The notes under the pieces are model-generated. The model was not told where the DNA came from. It made no database searches and saw only the letters and a list, made by a program, of their open reading frames with translations. 33,480 nt of DNA from Euryarchaeota archaeon TMED99 (lineage in GTDB: Archaea > Thermoplasmatota > Poseidoniia > Poseidoniales > Poseidoniaceae). Below are positions 6,568 through 21,381 of the stretch, in pieces; positions within the stretch are counted from its first letter, which is position 1, and every line of letters starts with the position of its first letter. The DNA lies in the NCBI GenBank assembly GCA_002170315.2, contig NHFA02000036.1:13042-46521 (forward strand), read 5' to 3'. A program made the position numbers and the translations under genes.

Positions 6568-7572
6568 TTAGCCGCCGATAAACGACATTTCGACGGGTTG
6601 TCTTGTTTCTTTGAGTTGAGTTCTCAGTTCAGAATATCTGTCGTCTCTGTATGTCCAAATGTCTCGAATTATTTGACCAATTTCTTGTTCATTAGCACCA
6701 AAGCGTAGAATGCCTCTTAGGTCATAACCTTGCTCTGAAAAGAGGCATGTATACATCGAACCGTGTGCGGAAAGACGTGCACGTGAGCAATTTCCACAGA
6801 ACGGTTTTGTTACCGATTCAATGAAACCTACCGTAGAGCCATTGACAAATCGCCATAGGCGGGCAACATCGGATGGGTGCTCAGACGCTCTTGGTTCGAG
6901 AGGTCCCAAGTGATTACGCAGGATGTCTCTCATCTCTTTTCCACTGATTACCGCATCAAGATTCCAATTATTGGTCGTTCCTACATCCATGAACTCAATG
7001 AATCGGACAGGAATGTCTCGTTCCATACATGCTTTGGCTAAAGGAACGATTTGAGACTCATTGACGCCTTTCTTGACCACGCAATTCACTTTGACAGTCA
7101 GGCCAATCTGTTGCGCTAAATCGATGCCTTCGAATATTTGAGAGGGCGTATTCTTGCTGTCTGTAATCGTTTGAAAGAGTTCCTCTTCAACAGCGTCAAG
7201 ACTTACGGTAACTCGGCTCAAACCACTTTTGAGTAACATCTCAGCATGACGTTGCAAAAGCACTCCGTTGGTGGTCATGGCGATGTCAAGGTCCGGGTCG
7301 AGCTCCCGCAAGAGTCGGAGAAGAACATGGACGTCTCTTCGAAGCAGTGGTTCACCACCGGTAATTCTGACTTTAGCGAGACCTAACGGCAGTAACGAGG
7401 CAACCACTTTCGCCATTTCTTCGTAACTCAAGATTTCTTCCTTGCCCAAAAAAGTGTGCCCAGGCCCAAATTTGTCTCTCGGCATACAATATGTGCATCG
7501 GAAATTACATCGGTCAGTAATTGAGATTCGCAGGTCCCTCAAGGGGCGGCCTTGTGAATCCTGCAGCGACAT
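6568..7572 (-). CDS. moaA: GTP 3',8-cyclase MoaA (molybdenum cofactor biosynthesis, radical SAM)
   Basis: Radical SAM CxxxCxxC in TDRCNFRCTYCMP; KVRITGGEPLLRRDV; second Fe-S region FCGNCSRARLSAHG..C. ATG at 7572 (MSLQDSQGRPLRDLRIS) fits better than the longest ORF start at 7734. Confidence 0.93.
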   Translation of the reverse strand: MSLQDSQGRPLRDLRISITDRCNFRCTYCMPRDKFGPGHTFLGKEEILSYEEMAKVVASLLPLGLAKVRITGGEPLLRRDVHVLLRLLRELDPDLDIAMTTNGVLLQRHAEMLLKSGLSRVTVSLDAVEEELFQTITDSKNTPSQIFEGIDLAQQIGLTVKVNCVVKKGVNESQIVPLAKACMERDIPVRFIEFMDVGTTNNWNLDAVISGKEMRDILRNHLGPLEPRASEHPSDVARLWRFVNGSTVGFIESVTKPFCGNCSRARLSAHGSMYTCLFSEQGYDLRGILRFGANEQEIGQIIRDIWTYRDDRYSELRTQLKETRQPVEMSFIGG

Positions 7573-7642
7573 CAGCAACGCTATGCGCATTCGGCTTTTT
7601 ATTCTTGCAAGGGTTGATGCGTGTTTGGAGGTTGCGTTGAAC

Positions 7643-9055
7643 ATGGCGAGGGGTTGGGTGAAGCCCGAAAGCACATCTGGTGGCGAAGTCAAGATTCTTC
7701 GAATCACCTCAAGAACCTCACAATCCCCAATCAAATGGAGGTTACCTCCCTCGAAAAGTCACTTAATTCGAGCCCTTGCCTTATTCTCTCAATCCCATCA
7801 ACAAGTTACACTTGACAACGTTGGATACTCTGGCGAAGATGTTTGGGCAATGCGCAGTTCCCTTGCTCAAATGGGTGTCAAATTCCAAGATTATGATTCA
7901 CAAGGAAATGAACTTCAACACAACGATCCGATGCGTTTGCAGCCACACCCTGATTCAGTTCGTTGGGTCTTGAATGGTGTGGGGCCTGATGGCTTCAAGC
8001 AGCCGAGCAATGTTCTTCATGCCATGAATTCAGGCACAGCACTGCGATTTTTAGCCGGCCTCGTTGCCCGTATGGAGGGTCCAGTGACGTTGGATGGCGA
8101 CCAGTCTTTGCGCCAAAGAGAGTCAGATGCCATGTGGGATTCTCTTCGTCAGGCAGGGGTAGATGTTTCAATTGCTGCTGGTAAACAACACCTACCAGTT
8201 GTTGTTCAAGGTCCGTGGAAGAAAGAACAACTCACTCAAGGAATCGACCTTGACATCAGTCGTTCAAGTCAACCACTTTCATCGTGGTTACTTGCTTCAG
8301 CAGCTCTTCCTTGTGAAGTTCAACTCAATCTTATTGGCAAAGGTGTATCGAACCGTCATTCCAAATTAACAGCAAAAATGGTCGAGGCTTCAGGGAGTAA
8401 AAACCAACTTCAACCAGCGCAGTGCTCTCTTTTTCCATGGATTCCAAAGTCCGAGGAAATCTACACAGTTCCCGGTGACGCATCTATGGCATCGTTTGCT
8501 ATGCTGGCAACGCATTGCCTTGATGCTGAAATCCACCTCAGAGGATGGCCTCAAGAAAGTCAGGCTATCGGGCATGAAATCCTTTCAAAATCCGCTATAG
8601 AATGTGGTGTTAAGTGGGATAAAGATGTTTTGAAAAGTATTGAATCTTCTCAACCCGTTGTATTGAATGTTATCGATTCCAATGACATACTTCCTCCACT
8701 TGCAGCCTTGCTCTGCTTTGGACCAGGTGGACGAATTATCGGTGCACCTCACGCCGCACACAAAGAAAGTAACAGGCTATCACGAACCGTAGAACTCCTC
8801 CAATTCTTTGGATTACAAGCCTCATTACTGGATGATGGAATCGAAGTGAAAGGGAACCAAACGCCAACTGCACCGACTCAGCCAGTGTCTACTTTTGGCG
8901 ATCATCGTTTATTCATGACCGCATTACTTCTTGCAGCGAAAACCGGAGGAGAAGTGGTTGGCCAGACCCTTCATCAAGTTGCTGACGAGACTTTCTTGGA
9001 GCGTTTACAGCAAGCAGGTATTGGGATTGAAACTGCAACAGTATCCAATTCATAA
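7643..9055 (+). CDS. aroA: 3-phosphoshikimate 1-carboxyvinyltransferase (EPSP synthase)
   Basis: LPPSKSHLIRALAL, NSGTALRFLAGL, LDGDQSLRQRESDAMWDSLRQAGV, FGDHRLFMTALLLA. ATG at 7643 chosen from the longer ORF 7442..9055. Confidence 0.93.
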   Translation: MARGWVKPESTSGGEVKILRITSRTSQSPIKWRLPPSKSHLIRALALFSQSHQQVTLDNVGYSGEDVWAMRSSLAQMGVKFQDYDSQGNELQHNDPMRLQPHPDSVRWVLNGVGPDGFKQPSNVLHAMNSGTALRFLAGLVARMEGPVTLDGDQSLRQRESDAMWDSLRQAGVDVSIAAGKQHLPVVVQGPWKKEQLTQGIDLDISRSSQPLSSWLLASAALPCEVQLNLIGKGVSNRHSKLTAKMVEASGSKNQLQPAQCSLFPWIPKSEEIYTVPGDASMASFAMLATHCLDAEIHLRGWPQESQAIGHEILSKSAIECGVKWDKDVLKSIESSQPVVLNVIDSNDILPPLAALLCFGPGGRIIGAPHAAHKESNRLSRTVELLQFFGLQASLLDDGIEVKGNQTPTAPTQPVSTFGDHRLFMTALLLAAKTGGEVVGQTLHQVADETFLERLQQAGIGIETATVSNS

Positions 9056-9056
9056 A

Positions 9057-11060
9057 TCAGCCATGGCGGCCAAAGTGATGATCCAGTGAATCCAACGGAA
9101 GTCGTAATGCTGTAGGGCGGCCATGAACGCAAGCCCAAGGATTGGGAATTCTTCTCATATCATCGATTAATCTTCGCATTTCAGGTAAAGTCAATTTTTC
9201 ATTTGCCTTGACTGACCCTCGGCAGGCATTGAGGAATGCGAGGTGGTCTTTACGACGGTCAACGGTCTCTAAGGGGGCGCCATCCTCCGCAGTATCTTGT
9301 AAGAGGTCCATGAGGAACGGAACCAATTCTTGGCCATCAAGCAGGTGAGGAGCAGCATCAATCATCCAACCCTCTTCACTTTCTCGCACCGAAAAACCAA
9401 CTTCGCTTAAGGTGTCGACAGCAGCTGAAATTCGCGCAGATTGTCGGGCGTCGAGGTCTAATTTTACTGGCTCGATTTTTGTCTGGCTTTCCCATAATGA
9501 AGCATCATGGCGTAACCGTTCATATCGGATACGTTCATGGAGAGCATGTTGGTCAATCAGAAGTAATTCTCCCTCTGCTTGAACCAAAATATAGGAATCA
9601 GCAAATTGTGCTAATGGTTCCATTTCTGGGAGTTCATTGATGATGCCTTCGAGGGGCTTCTCTTCATTGGGCGAATGACGAATACCGCAGCCGGCATGCC
9701 GATGCAGTGTCCTTTCAGCAGGGGATAATGCAGGTGCAGTAGGTTTCTGATCTAATCCTGGAAGGGTCTCTTGTGCTTCAGGTGCTGTTGATTGTGGGCG
9801 CTTTTTTTCCACCGCTTCGGGTTCTTCCGCTTCTCTTCCGTGAAGATTCAGTTGCGCTCCAGCAGCAATGGCCCATGCAGGTGGTGCTTGTTGGGTGTCT
9901 TTTGGAAGCACAAGTGCTGAAGCACCTGCTGCAGCATCCAATGGGTCCAATGATGTTTTTTCAGCAGTAAGGTGTTCTTGAATGGATGTTGTTTTTTGGA
10001 TGCCAAGTCCTTGAAGTCCAGGAATACCTCCAGCAGCGTCAGGTTGTGTTGGAGCCGATTCAAGCGTATGAGCAATCGCTCTTTCGAGTCGTTCCAAAAC
10101 TCGCCATGAATGGCGGAGCCGCACTTCACGCTTGGTTGGATGAACATTCACGTCGACTTCTTCTGGAGGAAGGGTCAACGAAAGAACTGCAATGGGGTGC
10201 CTTCCTTGCATCAAACGTGTGCGGTAACCACGGCGAATGGCTTGAAGAAAAGGGCCAGCTGCAACGGGGCGACCGTTAATGAGAACATGGATATCGTCGC
10301 CTTTGCCACGGGTGATATCTGGCGTACTAATCCATCCACTCCAGCGCTCTTGACCCGGTGCATCAGCATCACTTTGTGGAGATTTTATCTCTAGCATTGA
10401 CTCGACTTGTCCACCCAGCAAGTCAAACAGCCTGTCCATCATTGATTCTGCAGGAGGGATGTCAAGCATGACCCGTTCATCGATGACCAGTCGGAATCCT
10501 ATGGATTGGTGAGCCATTGCGTGAGCAACAACAACATCAACGATACGCGCATTTTCAGTCGCTGGCCGGCGTTGGAATGCTAATCGAGCGGGAGTATTCT
10601 TGAATAAATGTTCAACATCGACCCGTGTACCTTTCTGCATGCCAAATGGTTCTACAGTGCCTTTTACGCCATTCTTCATAGCGATTGATTTACCTTCTTT
10701 TCCTTCTGGGCGGCTTGATATCGTGAGGTGCGAGACCATTCCGATGCTCGCTAATGCTTCTCCTCGGAAACCAAGAGTGTGAATTGAATTCAAATCCTCA
10801 GCCTTTTGCAATTTTGAAGTTGCATGTCGATCCAGCGAAAGTCGCAGGTCGTCCTCATCGATTCCACTTCCGTCGTCTTCGATACAGATGAGGTCAAAAC
10901 CACCTCGCTCAACGGTAATTACCAGACGCATTGAACCCGCATCAAGACTGTTTTCAAGCAGTTCTTTGACGACTTGAGCAGGCCGTTCGACAACCTCTCC
11001 AGCAGCGATATGCCCAATGGTGGTTTCATCCAATTGTAGAATCCTTTTTGGTTCAGACAT
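9057..11060 (-). CDS. mutL: DNA mismatch repair protein MutL
   Basis: GHKL N-terminus IAAGEVVERPAQVVKELLENSLDAGS, GFRGEALASI; C-terminal endonuclease motif DQHALHERIRYE (DQHAx2Ex4E), ACRGSVKA and CVHGRPT. Confidence 0.97.
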   Translation of the reverse strand: MSEPKRILQLDETTIGHIAAGEVVERPAQVVKELLENSLDAGSMRLVITVERGGFDLICIEDDGSGIDEDDLRLSLDRHATSKLQKAEDLNSIHTLGFRGEALASIGMVSHLTISSRPEGKEGKSIAMKNGVKGTVEPFGMQKGTRVDVEHLFKNTPARLAFQRRPATENARIVDVVVAHAMAHQSIGFRLVIDERVMLDIPPAESMMDRLFDLLGGQVESMLEIKSPQSDADAPGQERWSGWISTPDITRGKGDDIHVLINGRPVAAGPFLQAIRRGYRTRLMQGRHPIAVLSLTLPPEEVDVNVHPTKREVRLRHSWRVLERLERAIAHTLESAPTQPDAAGGIPGLQGLGIQKTTSIQEHLTAEKTSLDPLDAAAGASALVLPKDTQQAPPAWAIAAGAQLNLHGREAEEPEAVEKKRPQSTAPEAQETLPGLDQKPTAPALSPAERTLHRHAGCGIRHSPNEEKPLEGIINELPEMEPLAQFADSYILVQAEGELLLIDQHALHERIRYERLRHDASLWESQTKIEPVKLDLDARQSARISAAVDTLSEVGFSVRESEEGWMIDAAPHLLDGQELVPFLMDLLQDTAEDGAPLETVDRRKDHLAFLNACRGSVKANEKLTLPEMRRLIDDMRRIPNPWACVHGRPTALRLPLDSLDHHFGRHG

Positions 11061-13707
11061 TCTTTTCGCCTCCGAGTAGTTTCTTTAGTCTATAGAGTGC
11101 GTCATGTGCTTGACGCGGTGAAAGTTCATCCGCATCGATGTCGGAAAGATATGCAAGCGTTTCTTTCTCTTCTTGACGAATGTTCGGTGCGGTTTGTTTT
11201 GCTCCGTTCTTCTGAGTAATCGCTGCGGCTGCAAAATATCCCATTAAACTCGATTGCCCTTGAGCACGTGCCGAAGGAGTTCCTGATTCACCTGCTTTTG
11301 CACCATGTGCTTGTTGTTCTAAGAATGCAAGAAGGTCGCTCGCTCGTTCGACAACTGGCCGAGGTAAGCCCGCTAAAGCAGCAACTTGAACACCGTATGA
11401 ATCATCACACGGACCATCAGCAACGGTGTGAAGGAAACGAAGTTCTCCGTCTGCTTGTGCGACTTGTACGTGGACGTTGACCAATCCATCGACCTCTCCT
11501 TCGAGGCCGATTAATTGATGATAATGTGTTGCGAATAATGTCCGTGCCCCAATTCTCTTACAGATGTCTTCAGTGACGGACCACGCGATAGATAATCCAT
11601 CAAATGTCGAAGTTCCACGGCCAATTTCATCAAGTAAAACGAGCGATTGTGGCGTAGCTCTTCGAAGAATATGAGCGACTTCAATCATCTCCATCATGAA
11701 TGTAGAACGCCCTCGGCGTAAGTCGTCACTTGCACCGACACGAGTAAAAATTCGATCGACCAGCCCAATTCTCGCTTTCTTCGCAGGAACAAAACTACCG
11801 GACTGGGCCAGGATTGTCAATAATGCCGTTGTCCGAAGGTAAGTCGATTTACCACCCATATTTGGTCCTGTGATTAAGAGGAAGTTTCTCTTCTTTTGCA
11901 ATTGAATATCATTTGGCACAAAGCCCGATTGCATTTCCAATGCAGGATGGCGGGCATCTTCGGCTTTGAGATGATGTCCTGCCGTTAACTCTGGACGAGT
12001 CCATGAACGTGTTCGAGCGATTGAAGCGAAGCATTGCAATACGTCGATTGCAGCAACTCTGCCTGCGATATTGGCGAGGAGTTGCGCGTGCATTCGACAA
12101 CGTTCTCTTAGCGAGGTAAATTCTCGATATTCCAATTCCTTGACCTTTGTATCAGCGGTTAAGAGAAGGTCGTCTCTTTCTGACAATTCATCGGTAATAT
12201 ATCGAGAACCATTGGTCATCTGTTGCTTCCGACGCCATTCTTCAGGAACTTTGGTTTCATGAGATTTTGTGACTTCAATAAACCATCCTATTTGGCGGTT
12301 CATTCGAACTTTCAGTGAAGGTATTTCCAGTTCTCGTCGTAACTTCGCTTCTAAGTCTTGGAACCAAGAATGCCCAGTTGCGGAAGTTTCTCGAAGTTCA
12401 TCGATGGTTGAATTGAGTCCTGCTCGAATTAAGTTTCCATCACGAATGCTGAGCGGAGGTTCATCGACCAGCGTACGGCGAATATCTTCTGCAAGGTCAC
12501 TCAAAGCATCTAATTCATGCGAGAGATGACCGAGGAGTGGATTTTCAGTTTCATTACAGAGATTGATGATTGCAGGCATCCGCTCTAAAGCATCCGAAAC
12601 AGCGAGCAAGTCTCGCCCATTTGACCGGTTATAGGCGAGTTGTGTTGCCAATCGTTCCATATCTCTCAGCCCACGTAGGGCTTCCCGTAGACCCTCAAGT
12701 CGACGAGCAGAACGAGCAAGTGAACCAACCGCTTCATGGCGTGCATGAATGGCTTCAAGATTGCACAGAGGGCGTAAAAGCCATGTTTTTAGCAATCGCC
12801 GTCCCATTGCACTTCGACATGCATTCATTGTCGAAAGTAGACTTCCTTCATATTCTCCTGCTAATGTTGAAGTTAATTCGAGGTTCTTCAATGTCGTTTG
12901 GTCAAGAACCAAATTTCCAGTTTCCTTGATGACTTCGATATCTCGAAGCGGTATTTCATCGGTGATGTGCATGGTTGCAAGGTAGTCGGCAGCAAGTCCT
13001 GCTGCAGCCAGTGCAATCGGCGAGTCATCTAAATCCAGATGACCTAAATCAGCGACTTTTAACACCTTTTCAAGACGGCTTCTGCGCCTTTTTTCACTCG
13101 CTCGGTGTTGGCTGATGAGAACATTGTCAAGATGGGAAAAAAGAGCGCATAGTTCAGTATCTTCTGCATCTTTAGGCGAGACGACAATTTCTGTTGGCCG
13201 CCATCTCATGATTTCATCTAACGCTCGAGCAAAGCGGTCATCCCCGTTCAAGTCAGAAGCCCATGCTTGACCCGTAGATGCATCGACAATTCCGACTCCT
13301 AGCGTTGACTTATCGAGTACGACTGAAACCAAAAGGGAACGTTCATCTGTTCCAAGTAACGATTCTTCATACAAACTTCCAGGTGTGTAAACTCTTGTCA
13401 CCATACGTTCCAAGATCTTCGCACCTTCTCGTAGTTCTTGCTCTTGTTCTGCTACAGTGACTTTGTATCCTGCTTTCAGCATACCTCGAATGTTGTCTTC
13501 CAATGCATGCCAAGGGAATCCAGCCATTTGAATCGGTTTATCTGCCTTCTTGTCTCGAGATGTAAGAGCCAATCCGAGGATTTCAGAACCCACTTCCGCA
13601 TCCTCGTGGAATAATTCATAGAAGTCGCCCATCCTGAAGAAAAGGATCGTATCAGGGTGTTCCTTTTTGATGTCCATGAATTGGTCCATCATCCCCCTTT
13701 TTGCCAT
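11053..13707 (-). CDS. mutS: DNA mismatch repair protein MutS
   Basis: FFRMGDFYELFHEDA mismatch-recognition motif; Walker A ITGPNMGGKSTYLR; LVLLDEIGRGTSTFDGLSIAW. ATG at 13707 (MAKRGMMDQFMDIK) preferred over the ORF start at 13761. Confidence 0.97.
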   Translation of the reverse strand: MAKRGMMDQFMDIKKEHPDTILFFRMGDFYELFHEDAEVGSEILGLALTSRDKKADKPIQMAGFPWHALEDNIRGMLKAGYKVTVAEQEQELREGAKILERMVTRVYTPGSLYEESLLGTDERSLLVSVVLDKSTLGVGIVDASTGQAWASDLNGDDRFARALDEIMRWRPTEIVVSPKDAEDTELCALFSHLDNVLISQHRASEKRRRSRLEKVLKVADLGHLDLDDSPIALAAAGLAADYLATMHITDEIPLRDIEVIKETGNLVLDQTTLKNLELTSTLAGEYEGSLLSTMNACRSAMGRRLLKTWLLRPLCNLEAIHARHEAVGSLARSARRLEGLREALRGLRDMERLATQLAYNRSNGRDLLAVSDALERMPAIINLCNETENPLLGHLSHELDALSDLAEDIRRTLVDEPPLSIRDGNLIRAGLNSTIDELRETSATGHSWFQDLEAKLRRELEIPSLKVRMNRQIGWFIEVTKSHETKVPEEWRRKQQMTNGSRYITDELSERDDLLLTADTKVKELEYREFTSLRERCRMHAQLLANIAGRVAAIDVLQCFASIARTRSWTRPELTAGHHLKAEDARHPALEMQSGFVPNDIQLQKKRNFLLITGPNMGGKSTYLRTTALLTILAQSGSFVPAKKARIGLVDRIFTRVGASDDLRRGRSTFMMEMIEVAHILRRATPQSLVLLDEIGRGTSTFDGLSIAWSVTEDICKRIGARTLFATHYHQLIGLEGEVDGLVNVHVQVAQADGELRFLHTVADGPCDDSYGVQVAALAGLPRPVVERASDLLAFLEQQAHGAKAGESGTPSARAQGQSSLMGYFAAAAITQKNGAKQTAPNIRQEEKETLAYLSDIDADELSPRQAHDALYRLKKLLGGEKNV

Positions 13708-13815
13708 GCTCAATACTCTCCTTGCTCTCGCTGGAGTCCTATGTCGTTGCCGAGAGCACATGAAGGTTCTCGCGTAGCCTAGAAAGAACTCCAGTTTTCA
13801 CGGGAATTTTGTATT

Positions 13816-15215: not shown

Positions 15216-15755
15216 ATGGCACGTAAACCAGCATCTATGTATCGACGCCTCAAGGGTCCAGCCTATACTCGACGCAAGTATATCGGTGGTGTACCGAACA
15301 ACAGAATCCAGTCTTTCCATGCTGGAAACCGAGTTGCTGCAGAGACTGGGCAATTCAAAGTTATCATGGAACTTCGAGCTGATAACAGTTGCCAGATTCG
15401 TCACACTGCATTAGAAGCTGCTCGTGTTATTTCAAACTCTACAATCCGTAAGATTGCTGGAACAGAAGGTTACGCTCTTCGAGTCCATACCTTCCCTCAC
15501 CACATTCTCCGTGAAAACAAGCAAGCAACTGGTGCAGGTGCTGACCGTGTATCTCAAGGAATGCGATGTGCCTTCGGAAAGAATGTTGGAACAGCTGCCC
15601 GTGTTAAGCGAGGTCAAAGAGTCATGTCACTACAAATCAACCCAGAACACTACACCGTTGCTCGAGATGCTCTTCGAAAAGCGAGTATGAAGTTCCCGAC
15701 TCCGTGCACTGTTCGACTCATTCAAGGTCACGAGCACCTCAAGGGACTCGTTTGA
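15216..15755 (+). CDS. rpl10e: 50S ribosomal protein L10e (uL16)
   Basis: MARKPASMYRRLKGPAYTRRKYIGGVPNNRIQSFHAGN is typical of archaeal L10e. ATG at 15216. Confidence 0.95.
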   Translation: MARKPASMYRRLKGPAYTRRKYIGGVPNNRIQSFHAGNRVAAETGQFKVIMELRADNSCQIRHTALEAARVISNSTIRKIAGTEGYALRVHTFPHHILRENKQATGAGADRVSQGMRCAFGKNVGTAARVKRGQRVMSLQINPEHYTVARDALRKASMKFPTPCTVRLIQGHEHLKGLV

Positions 15756-15871: not shown

Positions 15872-15961
15872 ATGATTGAAGTAAATACCGAGGGCGACAT
15901 TCGTGAAACCTCGGTGGATTACTTGTCATCAAGACTTTTGCACAAGGCGGTGATTGGATGA
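15872..15961 (+). CDS. Candidate 29-aa microprotein ORF upstream of and overlapping the ABCE1 start
   Basis: ATG at 15872: MIEVNTEGDIRETSVDYLSSRLLHKAVIG*. GGAG lies just upstream. The TGA stop overlaps the ABCE1 ATG (ATGA). Confidence 0.35.
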   Translation: MIEVNTEGDIRETSVDYLSSRLLHKAVIG

Positions 15962-17730
15962 GAGTTGCTATCCTTGACCAAGAACGCTGTAAGCCAAACA
16001 GTAACGCCTTTAATTATCTGCAAAAGTATGCTGGTGCGTGTGGCAGTGAATGTATTCAGGCGACTGAAGAAGAATGTAAAATCTTAGAATCTGCATGCCC
16101 ACCTTGCCTTATTCGAGCGAAACTCTGTCCTGATGATGCGGTGAAAATCATCAATCTCCCAGAAGAACTTGATACCGATATGATTCACCGTTTTTCACTC
16201 AATGGTTTCCGTCTTTTCCGTCTCCCAGCACCAAGAAAACGCCAGGTAGTTGGAATACTTGGTCCGAACGGAATCGGTAAATCTACTGCCATCAAACTCC
16301 TTTCAGGTTCATTACGTCCAAACCTCGGTGATTGGGAAAGCACTCCACCTGATTGGGATGAGATTATCTCGATGTTCCCAAGAGGTGAGTTGCGAGATTA
16401 CCTTGGCTTGGTTTCCCAAGGTGAAGTGACTATTTCAACCAAACCTCAACACATTGACAAGTTACCGAAAGTGTTTGATGGTGAGGTGCGTGGACTTCTT
16501 TCACGCGTCGACGACCGAAATGAACTCGAAACTTTTGCCAGCGAACTAGGAATTACACACATCTTAGGTCGAAAACTTGGAGATTTATCGGGTGGTGAAT
16601 TACAGAGAGTCGCCATTTGTGCAACCTTGCTCAAAGAAGCAGATGTTTACTTCTTTGATGAACCTTCATCGTATCTTGATATTTATGAACGAATGAGGAT
16701 GGTTCTCATTCTTCAAGCGTTGGCTGAAAGAGGTAAGCGTGTTCTCGTGGTCGAACACGATTTGGCAATTCTTGATGTTCTTTGTGACTTGGTACACATC
16801 GTTTATGGAGATAAGGGCGGATATGGAATTTTCACTCCTTCTCGATCGACCCGTACAGCGGTGAATGCTTACCTCGATGGCTTCTTAGTCGAAGAAAATG
16901 TTCGTATTCGTGACAAGCCAATTCGTTTCTTGAAGCACTATGAACGGGTGAGTGAGCAAGGTAATGCCGTTCTGGAATGGGGTGATTTGGAAAAGAAACT
17001 CGGAGATTTCACCCTCACAACTGGCAAAGGTGCAGTTCATCGTTCAGAGGTTGTTGGCGTGGTTGGTCCTAACGCAACAGGTAAATCGACAATGATTAAA
17101 ATTCTCGCTGGAGAGATGGATTACGATGCTGGATGGGTATCTGATGGCGCCTCAATCTCATACAAACCTCAGCACATCACTGCAGATTTTGATGGAAGCG
17201 TTCAACTCTGGCTCGATACTGAAATTGGGCCGAAATGGCGTTCTGGTGAATTCAATGTCACAGTCATACGTGCACTTGGCGTCGATAAATTACTTCCAAA
17301 GAGAGTAAAGAAACTCTCCGGTGGTGAACGTCAAGCAGTTGCTCTAGCTATTTGTTTGGGTCGAGAAGCCGATTTGTATCTTTTTGATGAACCGTCTGCT
17401 CATTTGGATGCAAATGCTCGAATGGTTGCTGCTAAAGCTATCCGTAAAACGATGGAAATTAATGAGAAGTCCGCATTTGTAATTGATCACGATGTCTATT
17501 TTATCGATATTGTGAGTGACTCTTTACTTGTGTTTGAGGGCGAAGGTGCAGTTCATGGTTCTGCCAAAGGCCCATTCCGTCTTCGTGAAGGAATGAACCG
17601 CTTCCTTCAAAGTGTCAATATTACATTTCGGCGAGATCATGATTCAAAGCGCCCTCGAATCAATAAACCCGAGAGCCGTAAAGACAGAGAACAGAGGTCA
17701 GATGGTGACTTCTATTCATTCGAAAATTGA
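15958..17730 (+). CDS. ABCE1/RLI ribosome-recycling ATPase with atypical Fe-S domain
   Basis: Twin ABC domains: GPNGIGKST and GPNATGKST; LSGGELQRVAI and LSGGERQAVAL; FFDEPSSYLD and LFDEPSAHLD. Typical end: MNRFLQSVNITFRRDHDSKRPRINK. Confidence 0.95.
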   Translation: MRVAILDQERCKPNSNAFNYLQKYAGACGSECIQATEEECKILESACPPCLIRAKLCPDDAVKIINLPEELDTDMIHRFSLNGFRLFRLPAPRKRQVVGILGPNGIGKSTAIKLLSGSLRPNLGDWESTPPDWDEIISMFPRGELRDYLGLVSQGEVTISTKPQHIDKLPKVFDGEVRGLLSRVDDRNELETFASELGITHILGRKLGDLSGGELQRVAICATLLKEADVYFFDEPSSYLDIYERMRMVLILQALAERGKRVLVVEHDLAILDVLCDLVHIVYGDKGGYGIFTPSRSTRTAVNAYLDGFLVEENVRIRDKPIRFLKHYERVSEQGNAVLEWGDLEKKLGDFTLTTGKGAVHRSEVVGVVGPNATGKSTMIKILAGEMDYDAGWVSDGASISYKPQHITADFDGSVQLWLDTEIGPKWRSGEFNVTVIRALGVDKLLPKRVKKLSGGERQAVALAICLGREADLYLFDEPSAHLDANARMVAAKAIRKTMEINEKSAFVIDHDVYFIDIVSDSLLVFEGEGAVHGSAKGPFRLREGMNRFLQSVNITFRRDHDSKRPRINKPESRKDREQRSDGDFYSFEN

Positions 17731-17744
17731 GGTGTGATGAGAAA

Positions 17745-19511
17745 ATGCCAGTAGGAATGCCGCCACTTGGAGGTCCATTAGGACGTTCACGATCACGTAT
17801 TTCTGCCAGTGGACTCACCACTTTTCTTCGGTGCAAGCGGCAATGGTTTCTTGGCTCTAAAGTTGGAATTTCAGGACCCTTGAGACCTTCTCAAGTCATT
17901 GGTATTGTGCTTGAAGACGCTCTTTGTGGATTGATGATGCAGCGGCCTGAAAAAGAGTTTCAAACTTTTTCTGAATTGAAAGAATGGATGTTGAATTTGA
18001 TTCCAAAAGCGGCTCAAGAAGCTCTAGCGGCGGGAGAAGTTCTCTGGGATGAAGGTCTTTGGTATGCGCCTGAGACATCTTGGGATGATGTCGAAATTGA
18101 ATCGTTTGAGACTCGTCTTGAAAATGGCTTGATGTTATTGTTTGAAGAGGTTGAGGCCTGCTATGAAGCGAATGGAGGTCCTTATTTGGATTTGATGAGG
18201 GCAAATGAATCCCCCTTTGAAGTTCCATCACCTGCTTGGGGCGATGAACCTCGTTTCCCCGTACCCGACAAAGTTCGTAATCATGAATTACGTTCTTGGG
18301 CGATTCCAGAACAAGCGATGATTTGGAAAAAATCAGGAACTCCTGTTTCATGGAACGAGGCTCTTGAAATCGCCCGACCTTGGACCAAAGACCCTCGAGT
18401 ACATCAACCTCAACGATTGTTTCATCCTGAGCGATGGGCTGCAGGAGAACTGGACTTGGTGCTACGATGGGATGGTCGAATTCGAATTGTCGATATCAAA
18501 TCCGGTGACCCGAGTTCTCGGTTTGCTGAATCGCTCCAGCACCAACTTCGATTCTATGCATGGCTTTGGCATGAGACGCATGAGGGTGAATGCATCGACG
18601 GATTAGAAGGATGGTACCTCAACGGTCCTCATCGTGTTCTGTATGATGCACCTCGTCCAGATGAATATGGAGAAATGACGAATGAATTTTTCCAAGTTAA
18701 TTCTGAAATGCAAAGCATGGGGTCAGGTCCTGCGGCTATGCCGGTTCTACCCGAAGATGCGTGTGATGGGAGTGCAGCAGGATGCCATTGGTGCAGCCTT
18801 GCTCGCGATGAGGATGGGCAGTGGTTTGGAGATGAACTCCTTTCAAACATCACTCCAAGTCGCGAAATTTCTCTAACGGTCCCAAGTGAACCCTTGTCAA
18901 ATATACCTGTTCGAGTGAGTGTTCAAGGGAAGTTTACCGGTGCATGGGGCCCGTTGCCAAATCATTTCGGTGAGCCGGTTCTTGGCGCAATGTTGGTTGC
19001 CGGTGGTGTTCAAATTACCGTCGAAGAGAGTGAGCCTGGAAGTTATCCACTTCTTCATGATCAAGAAAATGGAGAACTGGTGATACTTGACGCTCTCCCT
19101 GGCGTATGGCGGGGTGCTCCTCGATTGTATGTGGATTCAAGAACACGTATCGTGCCAATTGCACAAGCGAATAAAGAATTTGAGCAAACTGATACGCCGC
19201 TCTCTCAAAGAATGACGCGTATTGGTTTACTTCGCACCAGGGCGAATGTGGAAGGGATCGTTCTTAGCGTTCGAAAGCGTTCAGGAGTGCGATTGGATGC
19301 CAAACCTTGGACCATGTTAAACGTCCATCTTTGGGATGGGCATTCGGTGGTTGAAGTTGCTTCGTTCGGCTCGAGTATCACTGGACAAATGGAATCATTA
19401 CGGCCGGGTCAAACGCTGAAGTTACTGGCCGCTGAAATAGGTTGGAGAGCAGGACTGCCCCAACTTCGAATCGATACGAGAAAAACACGTCTGCAAATCA
19501 AAGATTCGTAA
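17745..19511 (+). CDS. PD-(D/E)XK (RecB/Cas4-like) nuclease with C-terminal OB-like domain, paralog 1
   Basis: Core GELDLVLRWDGRIRIVDIKSG, QxxxY-type motif HQLRFYAWLW; Cys at LRCKRQWF and DACDGSAAGCHWC; C-terminal beta-rich region RANVEGIVLSVRKRSG... Alternative TTG start at 17727. Confidence 0.75.
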   Translation: MPVGMPPLGGPLGRSRSRISASGLTTFLRCKRQWFLGSKVGISGPLRPSQVIGIVLEDALCGLMMQRPEKEFQTFSELKEWMLNLIPKAAQEALAAGEVLWDEGLWYAPETSWDDVEIESFETRLENGLMLLFEEVEACYEANGGPYLDLMRANESPFEVPSPAWGDEPRFPVPDKVRNHELRSWAIPEQAMIWKKSGTPVSWNEALEIARPWTKDPRVHQPQRLFHPERWAAGELDLVLRWDGRIRIVDIKSGDPSSRFAESLQHQLRFYAWLWHETHEGECIDGLEGWYLNGPHRVLYDAPRPDEYGEMTNEFFQVNSEMQSMGSGPAAMPVLPEDACDGSAAGCHWCSLARDEDGQWFGDELLSNITPSREISLTVPSEPLSNIPVRVSVQGKFTGAWGPLPNHFGEPVLGAMLVAGGVQITVEESEPGSYPLLHDQENGELVILDALPGVWRGAPRLYVDSRTRIVPIAQANKEFEQTDTPLSQRMTRIGLLRTRANVEGIVLSVRKRSGVRLDAKPWTMLNVHLWDGHSVVEVASFGSSITGQMESLRPGQTLKLLAAEIGWRAGLPQLRIDTRKTRLQIKDS

Positions 19512-19554
19512 TTTGAGAGCAGGGTTCAAGAACATTCGGCAATATCTCGCTGAT

Positions 19555-21381
19555 ATGCCGGTAAGACTCGCAACTCCTTCTGAAGATTCTGTCGGGCCAT
19601 ATAATCGACTTTCAGCAAGTCAGGTGAACACCTACCGTTCTTGTCCTCGTCTATGGTTTTATGAGAAAGTCCGGCGTTTTAAAATGCCACAAATACCGGT
19701 CTTATTTGTTGGCAGAGCGGTCGAAGAAGCAGTTTGTCGAATGCTTATGGAGTCGCCAGCCCTTCTGGTTGCCAATGCTTCATCAGACACGCTTTCAGCA
19801 ATACCTCTTGATGACAGTGGGATTCCAAGCCGCTCGAGCCTTGAGCCATGGCCAGCAGAGCGTTTACTCGCTCTCCCAGAAAACATGTGGCCTACAGATG
19901 TGGAGAGTTTACGTCATTGGGGTATTGGTCGATTGAAAAAGCATCTCCATCTCGCACTTAATGCCATGAAAGCTGAATGGGAAAAGGATGAACGTAAAGC
20001 AGGCCAATGGAGTTCTGTCGACCCCGATTACTGTCTTCAGATGTGTGTAAATGCATTGGATTTCCACTTGAAAGAAGTACAACGCTGCCTTGAGCAGAAT
20101 GGCGGGCCGAATCTCAAAGAATGGAGACGAGGCAAGCGTCCTGACTGGCCTTCACCCGATGCTCGTCGCTATACTCTTTCCAACAATCATCCTCTTTCAC
20201 AGAATGGAGAAGTTTCATTGGTCGAGGCTTGGGAAATTGCTCGACCTTGGTTTGTTGATCCAAATGCTGCCAAGTTTGCAATGAATGCAGTTCACCCAGA
20301 ACATTGGTTCCAAGGTGAGTATGATTTAGTCTATCGTTGGGATGGACGTATCAATATTGTTGATCTGAAAGCCAGCGTTGGAAAAGGTGACCGTTCGGGT
20401 AACTATGTTCAACAACTTCGCATGTATGCAATGCTTTGGTGGATTACACATGAAAAGAAAGAAATTGTGGATGCTCTCGAAATTTGGTATCTTGGTGCGA
20501 ATTCCATCAAATCAATCCCCTGTCCTACCGTTGAAGATATGACGGAAATGGAATCGGAACTTGAATCGTTATGGCACGAACTTCGAGAAACGACACCATC
20601 GATAGAAGAATGCCCGCCATCGCCCGCTCCAGTCCGAGGCTATGAGGCAGGTGGAGTCGCTATAGAACCGCCGAATGAGTCGAGATGTGAGCGCTGTGAT
20701 TGGAAACAAATTTGCCCAGGTGGAGAAGGAGATGACATCCTTCCTGAAGGGGGTTCAGTTCAATTACCGGGGAGTTCAACTTCATTTGATCTTACACCGA
20801 TAGGCGACCTCGACCCTCGAATGACGTTGATTGGTGAAGTATTCAGCGTGCTGAATGCGAGAGAAGGCCGGCGCCCTCAGATTACCATTTCTCAAGGTAA
20901 TGCGTTTGCCAAAGTTATACTGTTGGTTGACAATCACCAAGACGGACAGCCTTCTTGGCCAGAATCCATATCGAAAGGAGATATGGTCCGGCTCGATAAC
21001 GTCATTCCAAGTGCAAATTGGAAAGGAGAGATTGAACTTAAAGTCGACCCGCATGCGTGTATTGTTCCTGCTTCGGATGGTGAAATTGCATCCGATTTAA
21101 TGGAGTTCCGCGCTCGTTGGAACGTCTCAGGTCGCCTCATTTATCGGTTTGAAAAGAGAGGTGTTGGTCGGAACGGCAAAGAATGGCATCGGAAGGGTGC
21201 AATGATTCAAGATGCAAGTGGTGCAATGAAGGTTGACGGATGGGCAAATGATTGGGGCCCTCAGTATGACTTAGCAGAAATTGGTGATACCGTTGTTGTT
21301 GCCAACATTGGCTTGGATGCTTGGGCAGTTGAGGTTCGTGGAAGCGTTTCTCGAAATACGAAGTTCCACATTTTGAAGTGA
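19555..21381 (+). CDS. PD-(D/E)XK (RecB/Cas4-like) nuclease with predicted Fe-S cluster and C-terminal OB-like domain, paralog 2
   Basis: LSASQVNTYRSCPRLWFYEKV N-terminus, GEYDLVYRWDGRINIVDLKAS, QQLRMYAMLWW, and CERCDWKQICPGG (CxxCx5C), as in AddB/Cas4-type Fe-S nucleases. Alternative TTG start at 19513. Confidence 0.8.
   Translation: MPVRLATPSEDSVGPYNRLSASQVNTYRSCPRLWFYEKVRRFKMPQIPVLFVGRAVEEAVCRMLMESPALLVANASSDTLSAIPLDDSGIPSRSSLEPWPAERLLALPENMWPTDVESLRHWGIGRLKKHLHLALNAMKAEWEKDERKAGQWSSVDPDYCLQMCVNALDFHLKEVQRCLEQNGGPNLKEWRRGKRPDWPSPDARRYTLSNNHPLSQNGEVSLVEAWEIARPWFVDPNAAKFAMNAVHPEHWFQGEYDLVYRWDGRINIVDLKASVGKGDRSGNYVQQLRMYAMLWWITHEKKEIVDALEIWYLGANSIKSIPCPTVEDMTEMESELESLWHELRETTPSIEECPPSPAPVRGYEAGGVAIEPPNESRCERCDWKQICPGGEGDDILPEGGSVQLPGSSTSFDLTPIGDLDPRMTLIGEVFSVLNAREGRRPQITISQGNAFAKVILLVDNHQDGQPSWPESISKGDMVRLDNVIPSANWKGEIELKVDPHACIVPASDGEIASDLMEFRARWNVSGRLIYRFEKRGVGRNGKEWHRKGAMIQDASGAMKVDGWANDWGPQYDLAEIGDTVVVANIGLDAWAVEVRGSVSRNTKFHILK

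Follow-up and report, generated by a model that had tools for sequence, protein, structure and literature searches.

Sequence comparisons point to two interchangeable forms of the ribosome-recycling ATPase ABCE1 in marine surface archaea, one with a rebuilt iron-sulfur-type domain

Neither archaea nor eukaryotes can do without the ribosome-recycling ATPase ABCE1 (RLI). Its lever domain carries two diamagnetic [4Fe-4S] clusters, which published accounts call conserved and essential. In the ferredoxin fold, cysteines C1, C2, C3 and C8 surround cluster I and cysteines C4, C5, C6 and C7 surround cluster II. In ABCE1, eight highly conserved cysteines are reported to bind the two clusters (PMC6656783, PMC8153317), and these cysteines matter for the viability of yeast (PMC8153317). 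Cryo-EM of an archaeal post-splitting complex places residues R2, K15, N17, E19 and K59 of the protein in contact with rRNA helices h5 and h44, and residues P25, R28 and S29 in contact with ribosomal protein uS12 (PMC7196836).

Loss of structural Fe-S clusters from the core information machinery has been described in halophilic archaea, where TFE-beta and RNAP subunit D have each lost such a cluster and iron scarcity has been suggested as a cause (PMC5861453). In the marine Poseidoniales, proteorhodopsin alleles are replaced in place by homologous recombination and are tied to depth niche (PMC6461757). The literature searched, in which subscription papers were thinly covered, yielded no report of an ABCE1 variant like the one described here and no paper that links ABCE1 or ribosome recycling to Marine Group II.

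The window analyzed here is a stretch of 33,480 nucleotides from the metagenome-assembled genome (MAG) of Euryarchaeota archaeon TMED99 (1.8 Mb, 85% complete). On its plus strand, a gene starting with an ATG at position 15958 (15958..17730) encodes a 590-amino acid ABCE1/RLI of what we term the variant (V) type. The protein scores 738.7 bits against the NCBIfam profile PRK13409 (curated cut-off 469), and its closest PDB relatives are the archaeal ABCE1 structures 3j15 and 3bk7 from Pyrococcus, which match it over its whole length (E ~1e-170); structural alignment puts its identity to Pyrococcus ABCE1 at ~46%. The twin ABC cassettes and hinges (16174..17730, plus strand) are intact, with Walker A and LSGGE motifs in the translation and ABC_tran matches in two stretches. 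The ATPase motif columns are invariant or almost so across V-type sequences, and no V-specific compensatory residues were found in this part of the protein, the best column past residue 72 overlapping heavily between V-type and canonical (C-type) sequences. The V-type protein thus resembles the canonical ABCE1/RLI of Pyrococcus (3bk7/3j15), Sulfolobus (6tmf) and yeast (Rli1) in domain order, in both ATPase sites, in its hinges and in its ferredoxin-fold lever. The original prediction, namely that this locus encodes a genuine ABCE1 with a re-liganded Fe-S domain and with both cassettes and the rest of the protein intact, is borne out by the alignments, the profile and PDB matches and the ATPase motifs.

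The gene lies between those encoding ribosomal protein uL16 (L10e; 15216..15755, plus strand) and a PD-(D/E)XK nuclease-like protein (17727..19511, plus strand), and both neighbors are common to the V-type and C-type RLI genes of the genus. A single full-length RLI was found in the window genome and, like its relatives, it follows the translation gene encoding uL16. A first search of 60 genomes returned an RLI match in all of them, with one copy wherever a full-length RLI was found. It is therefore very improbable that the V type is a diverged paralogue or a degenerate copy with some other function and that a canonical ABCE1 resides elsewhere in the genome. The incompleteness of the window genome and an additional RLI fragment at the end of a contig in genome G037 would allow for such a scenario, but one full-length RLI per genome is also the rule in V-type genomes that are more than 90% complete, both types occupy the same uL16 to PD-(D/E)XK locus and all ATPase motifs are intact. 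The second canonical ABCE1 that the original prediction had named among the findings that would refute it did not materialize, as no genome examined carried a second full-length copy. The partial RLI of G037, which is present besides a full V-type RLI, comprises the C-terminal part of the protein (L058 / L221, G037:C8:6319-6894) and could be a genuine second allele or contamination.

The variant N-terminal domain, of the Fe-S type, spans residues 1-72 (15958..16173, plus strand; all codons below are on the same strand). Comparison of 72 non-redundant V-type with 44 C-type sequences revealed six cysteines that are invariant in the V type (72/72), against the eight of canonical ABCE1: Cys11 (15988..15990), Cys28 (16039..16041), Cys32 (16051..16053), Cys47 (16096..16098), Cys50 (16105..16107) and Cys57 (16126..16128). 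An exact check of sequence and coordinates confirmed that Cys11, Cys47, Cys50 and Cys57 correspond to canonical C1, C5, C6 and C8, as had been proposed, and that C7 is replaced by arginine (Arg53, 16114..16116), a residue found in 72/72 V-type sequences at a position that is cysteine in 44/44 C-type ones. The proposed replacement of C2, C3 and C4 stands for the first two, whereas C4 is either lost or displaced: on the pseudo-symmetry of the fold, Cys28, which follows helix 16-24 in the structural model, may be the displaced C4. Cys28 is also the only one of three supposedly new linker cysteines to be both new and invariant. Cys32 has a non-ligand counterpart, within an ECI motif, in 32/44 C-type sequences and is hence not new, while Cys40 (16075..16077) is new but present in only 54/72 V-type sequences, and its replacement by F, W or I elsewhere makes a ligand role unlikely. 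No histidine or aspartate is invariant in the domain across the 72 sequences. The window domain hence departs from the eight-cysteine, two-[4Fe-4S] pattern of ABCE1/RLI and, since C2, C3 and C7 are absent and C4 is absent or displaced, the protein is a variant of the family and not a canonical member. A divergent V subtype (L170 and L171, from genomes G268 and G359), with Lys at position 14, Met/Ile at 34 and Ser at 43, keeps all six cysteines and is useful for telling ligands from bystanders.

An AlphaFold2 model of the N-terminal domain, built from 47 V-type sequences and predicted without metals, adopts a beta-alpha-beta-beta-alpha-beta fold with a mean pLDDT of 89.5. In Foldseek, the Fe-S domains of ABCE1 are the nearest solved structures (probabilities reaching 1.0; TM 0.56-0.68 when normalized by query length), ahead of proteins with 2[4Fe-4S] ferredoxin domains, so that a ferredoxin-fold N-terminal domain is predicted with confidence; a full-length V-type model, of lower confidence (pLDDT 74), likewise matches ABCE1. 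The family models for the cluster ligands behave differently. The Pfam Fer4_RLI model aligns only to residues 1-14 of the window protein, at 13.9 bits (16.3 bits for the window domain) and below its cut-off of 23, and a Fer4_RLI profile search of the window assembly gave no match. No Fer4-family model is significant on V-type domains (best E 0.0025 among the 47 sequences), whereas 33/33 canonical domains match both Fer4_RLI and Fer4 (best E 6e-14 and 3e-9). The ferredoxin topology of the model, together with the failure of these models, indicates that the fold has been retained and the known ligand pattern has not. The V domain thus shares its topology with 2[4Fe-4S] ferredoxins but lacks their CxxCxxCxxxCP motif and any significant Fer4 match.

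Mapped onto the fold, site I of the V type keeps two of its four cysteines, Cys11 and Cys57, and site II retains C5 and C6, has arginine in place of C7 and has acquired Cys28 and Cys32 after helix 1. The domain is thus probably unable to accommodate two clusters as canonical ABCE1 does. We put at roughly 0.6 the probability that the V type is a working ABCE1 whose ferredoxin-fold lever has been rebuilt such that the two canonical [4Fe-4S] clusters are no longer bound. The simplest reading of the conserved ligands is one four-cysteine site plus a leftover thiol pair: on topology, Cys28, Cys32, Cys47 and Cys50 would form a single site, binding zinc or one cluster, that stabilizes the fold in the former place of cluster II, while site I would have been dismantled, leaving Cys11 and Cys57 as a thiol pair or a disulfide. 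We have a slight preference for zinc over one [4Fe-4S] cluster at the putative four-cysteine site. The domain might instead still bind two Fe-S clusters, through non-cysteine ligands or as other cluster types, such as one [4Fe-4S] and a small cluster at Cys11/Cys57. Non-cysteine ligands do occur in ferredoxins, six invariant cysteines exceed the needs of one four-cysteine site and the ferredoxin fold is retained, but the reduction of site I to two cysteines, the arginine fixed at C7, the lack of any invariant histidine or aspartate that could stand in and the silence of the Fer4 models make two clusters quite unlikely.

The rebuilt lever would have to meet the ribosome with an altered face. 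In C-type sequences, the C1-C4 segment largely preserves the contact pattern reported for the post-splitting complex, whereas the V type rewrites residues 14-31, the segment expected to face h44 and uS12. By-eye comparison of uS12 revealed no V-specific change, the protein being identical in some V-type and C-type congeners; co-evolution with uS12 was accordingly rejected, and the same ribosomal protein appears to accept either domain. That most of the h44/uS12 contact residues (K15, N17, P25, R28 and S29) fall in the rewritten segment with uS12 unchanged counts against a working, rebuilt lever. So does the importance of the cluster cysteines in yeast, for which a one-site domain must have compensated. 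Under the rebuilt-lever reading, the V domain would still swing to h44/uS12 to split ribosomes, with its contact face rewritten.

The rearrangement, which the original prediction described from a single genome, proved to be clade-wide. Among the relatives in the first search that had a readable N-terminus, 27 were V-type (the window genome included) and 29 carried the canonical eight-cysteine form, and extension to 244 Poseidoniia genomes yielded 106 V-type, 121 C-type and 17 without a call, so that the window domain represents one of two stable alleles across the class (106/227 typed genomes). Both types are present in both MGII families (MGIIa and MGIIb) and in MGIII, as labeled from named records, and they occur side by side within single genera (e.g. 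g1, g3-g6, g10-g14, g18 and g23). Searched with a V-domain profile, the phylum falls into two groups: E-values reach ~1e-33 or better exclusively in class Poseidoniia, and the matches in other Thermoplasmatota genomes stay at 1.9e-12 or worse. The distribution is sharply bimodal, separating V-type sequences with a near-complete domain (<=6e-33) from canonical ones (>=1e-11), and the V domain was not seen in the ~260 other Thermoplasmatota genomes in the phylum sample. A scan of named genomes identified 147 V-domain loci, and the 80 of these that were listed are all labeled MGII, MGIII or generic euryarchaeote. No V domain was seen outside class Poseidoniia in the phylum sample, in those 80 of 147 named loci or, for eukaryotes, in the PDB.

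Most of these records are MAGs, which leaves some room for a sequencing, assembly or binning artefact. The probability of such an artefact is nonetheless negligible, as the same domain recurs with intact reading frames and a dN/dS of ~0.03 in many independent assemblies (UBA, FRAM, ETNP, Antarctic and Mediterranean bins) and, among the loci listed, in AG-333-I22 and AG-343-J07, records whose names follow a single-cell style. The sequence error that the original prediction had allowed for is thus contradicted by independent MAGs and single-cell-style records alike. Apparent insertions in the RLI of genomes G009 and G029 turned out to be runs of N, and inteins were rejected.

Both forms evolve under constraint. 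Within V-type clades, the domain had a median dN/dS of 0.019-0.031 and the remainder of the protein one of 0.018-0.04, against 0.016 and 0.017 in canonical clades, values that derive from few pairs because synonymous sites are close to saturation. With the bimodal profile E-values and the 26 columns that are invariant in the V domain (47 diverse sequences), these ratios place the V-domain pattern far beyond chance. All near-fixed differences between the two types lie within residues 9-65. That the V-type protein still recycles ribosomes is suggested by its single copy number, its intact ATPase, the purifying selection acting on it and the repeated cases in which it has replaced the canonical form.

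Tree comparisons indicate that the two forms have been exchanged repeatedly. The tree of the ATPase part requires 13 switches between V and C, at least 11 of them forced by well-supported branches. On an EF-2 tree, used as a one-gene proxy for the species tree, there are 26 switches (25 without two odd rows), at least 24 of which are forced by supported branches, and the domain hence appears to move by gene replacement as well as by domain swap. Because one-gene trees can mislead, the exact transfer count is uncertain, but that there were many transfers is firm. Whole-gene replacement is visible in sequence comparisons of the window clade, whose flanking genes are nearest to those of canonical congeners (uL16 89-94% and downstream neighbor 75-87% identity) while its RLI shares only ~71% identity with that of these congeners and takes a basal position in the MGIIb clade. 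It is visible too in MGIII, where V-type RLI is 57-58% and canonical RLI 47-49% identical to the window protein. Domain swap is visible in V types L009-L015, which nest inside canonical g1 in the ATPase-part tree, and in the comparison of L182 (V) with L184 (C), where identity is 84% upstream, 53% in the domain and 62-85% downstream of it. On these comparisons, ABCE1 of marine surface archaea comes in two interchangeable forms, between which lineages have switched about two dozen times.

We then related the two forms to light genes. Photolyase (strong matches only) is commoner in V-type genomes (CMH p 9e-9, odds ratio 6.5; V vs C by stratum 10/17 vs 7/29, 9/14 vs 12/50, 36/68 vs 5/31 and 7/7 vs 1/11), as is rhodopsin (CMH p 2e-7, odds ratio 5.6), except in non-g1 Poseidoniaceae. 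Poseidoniia rhodopsin matches fall into two discrete kinds, strong and weak; in the genes sampled, the tuning and donor residues are Gln/Glu in the strong kind, a blue type, and Met/Lys in the weak kind, a green type. These agree with the deep-photic and shallow-photic proteorhodopsin clades, respectively (PMC6461757). Among rhodopsin carriers, the V type goes with the blue Gln/Glu proteorhodopsin (CMH p 0.0017). In independent pairs drawn from the EF-2 tree, single light genes gave ~6-7 pairs in the expected direction vs 1-2 against, which is not significant (median p 0.125-0.18), and a composite marker, 'either light gene', gave 7 for and 0 against (median p 0.016). Since the composite was formed after the data were seen, the association is graded as suggestive only: the V allele is tied to light genes by correlation, with a modest signal in the same direction after phylogenetic correction.

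The clear, blue-light open ocean is typically iron-poor. Iron sparing would suggestively fit a blue-light habitat, as would light and oxidative stress. The V allele is probably iron-sparing and, on these ecological grounds, it may spare iron or escape the loss of clusters to photo-oxidation in sunlit, clear surface waters, with homologous recombination letting lineages switch allele with niche, as reported for Poseidoniales proteorhodopsin genes. A MoaA-type radical SAM enzyme (window 6568-7734, 355 bits) is an Fe-S protein kept in the window genome, which is thus not generally devoid of such proteins. An alternative would have the swap driven by conflict or chance rather than by metal, through escape from an ABCE1-targeting virus or toxin or through neutral drift under high recombination. 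The very frequent in-place exchange and the absence of co-change in uS12 or the rest of ABCE1 would suit an exchangeable target surface. We consider this unlikely, given that there are only two discrete states, both under purifying selection and without a diversifying surface, that the change concerns the metal-ligand set and that either light gene points the same way in all ~7 informative independent pairs. None of the viral contigs searched encodes a V domain and none of the phage records searched matches ABCE1, which also led us to reject a viral or phage origin.

Returning to the rebuilt lever, its bolder form, which we hold as tentative and at somewhat less than an even chance, is that an iron-free (zinc) or one-cluster ABCE1 is fully recycling-competent and that planktonic archaea exchange two-cluster and iron-poor alleles along light and iron gradients. 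If true, both [4Fe-4S] clusters would be dispensable to the recycling mechanism in nature. The V type is a natural form without the eight ligands, held under purifying selection in abundant ocean archaea and apparently interchangeable with the canonical one. The cluster loss in halophile TFE-beta and RNAP subunit D is a partial precedent, since it too affects core information machinery, but the V-type ligands are rebuilt and conserved, and both forms coexist in genera and are exchanged. Bacterial ribosomal proteins with zinc ribbons occur in metal-rich (C+) and metal-poor (C-) forms of patchy distribution, usually as paralogues under zinc control. The two RLI types are a similar case, patchily distributed and putatively metal-rich and metal-poor versions of one translation protein, but they are alternative alleles of one locus and it is presumably iron that is saved. 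The proteorhodopsin alleles of the same organisms are also replaced in place, but they encode a light pump, whereas RLI is an essential translation factor. The V type also suggests that alleles of a core translation factor can be selected by iron supply or by light. A direct test is offered by this natural pair of domains, which sit on ABCE1 bodies that are close relatives and share their uS12 partner, and the V/C domain provides a marker with which allele frequency can be followed from sequence data along gradients of depth and iron.

Two further features of the window were recorded. Immediately 3' of RLI lie two tandem PD-(D/E)XK (RecB-type) nuclease-like ORFs (window 17727-21381), the first of which, the neighbor conserved in the genus, overlaps the RLI stop codon. 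On the minus strand, adjoining MutL and MutS1 genes (window 9057-13761) strongly match the general models of these two families, and their presence in an archaeal genome suggests an acquired mismatch-repair pair.
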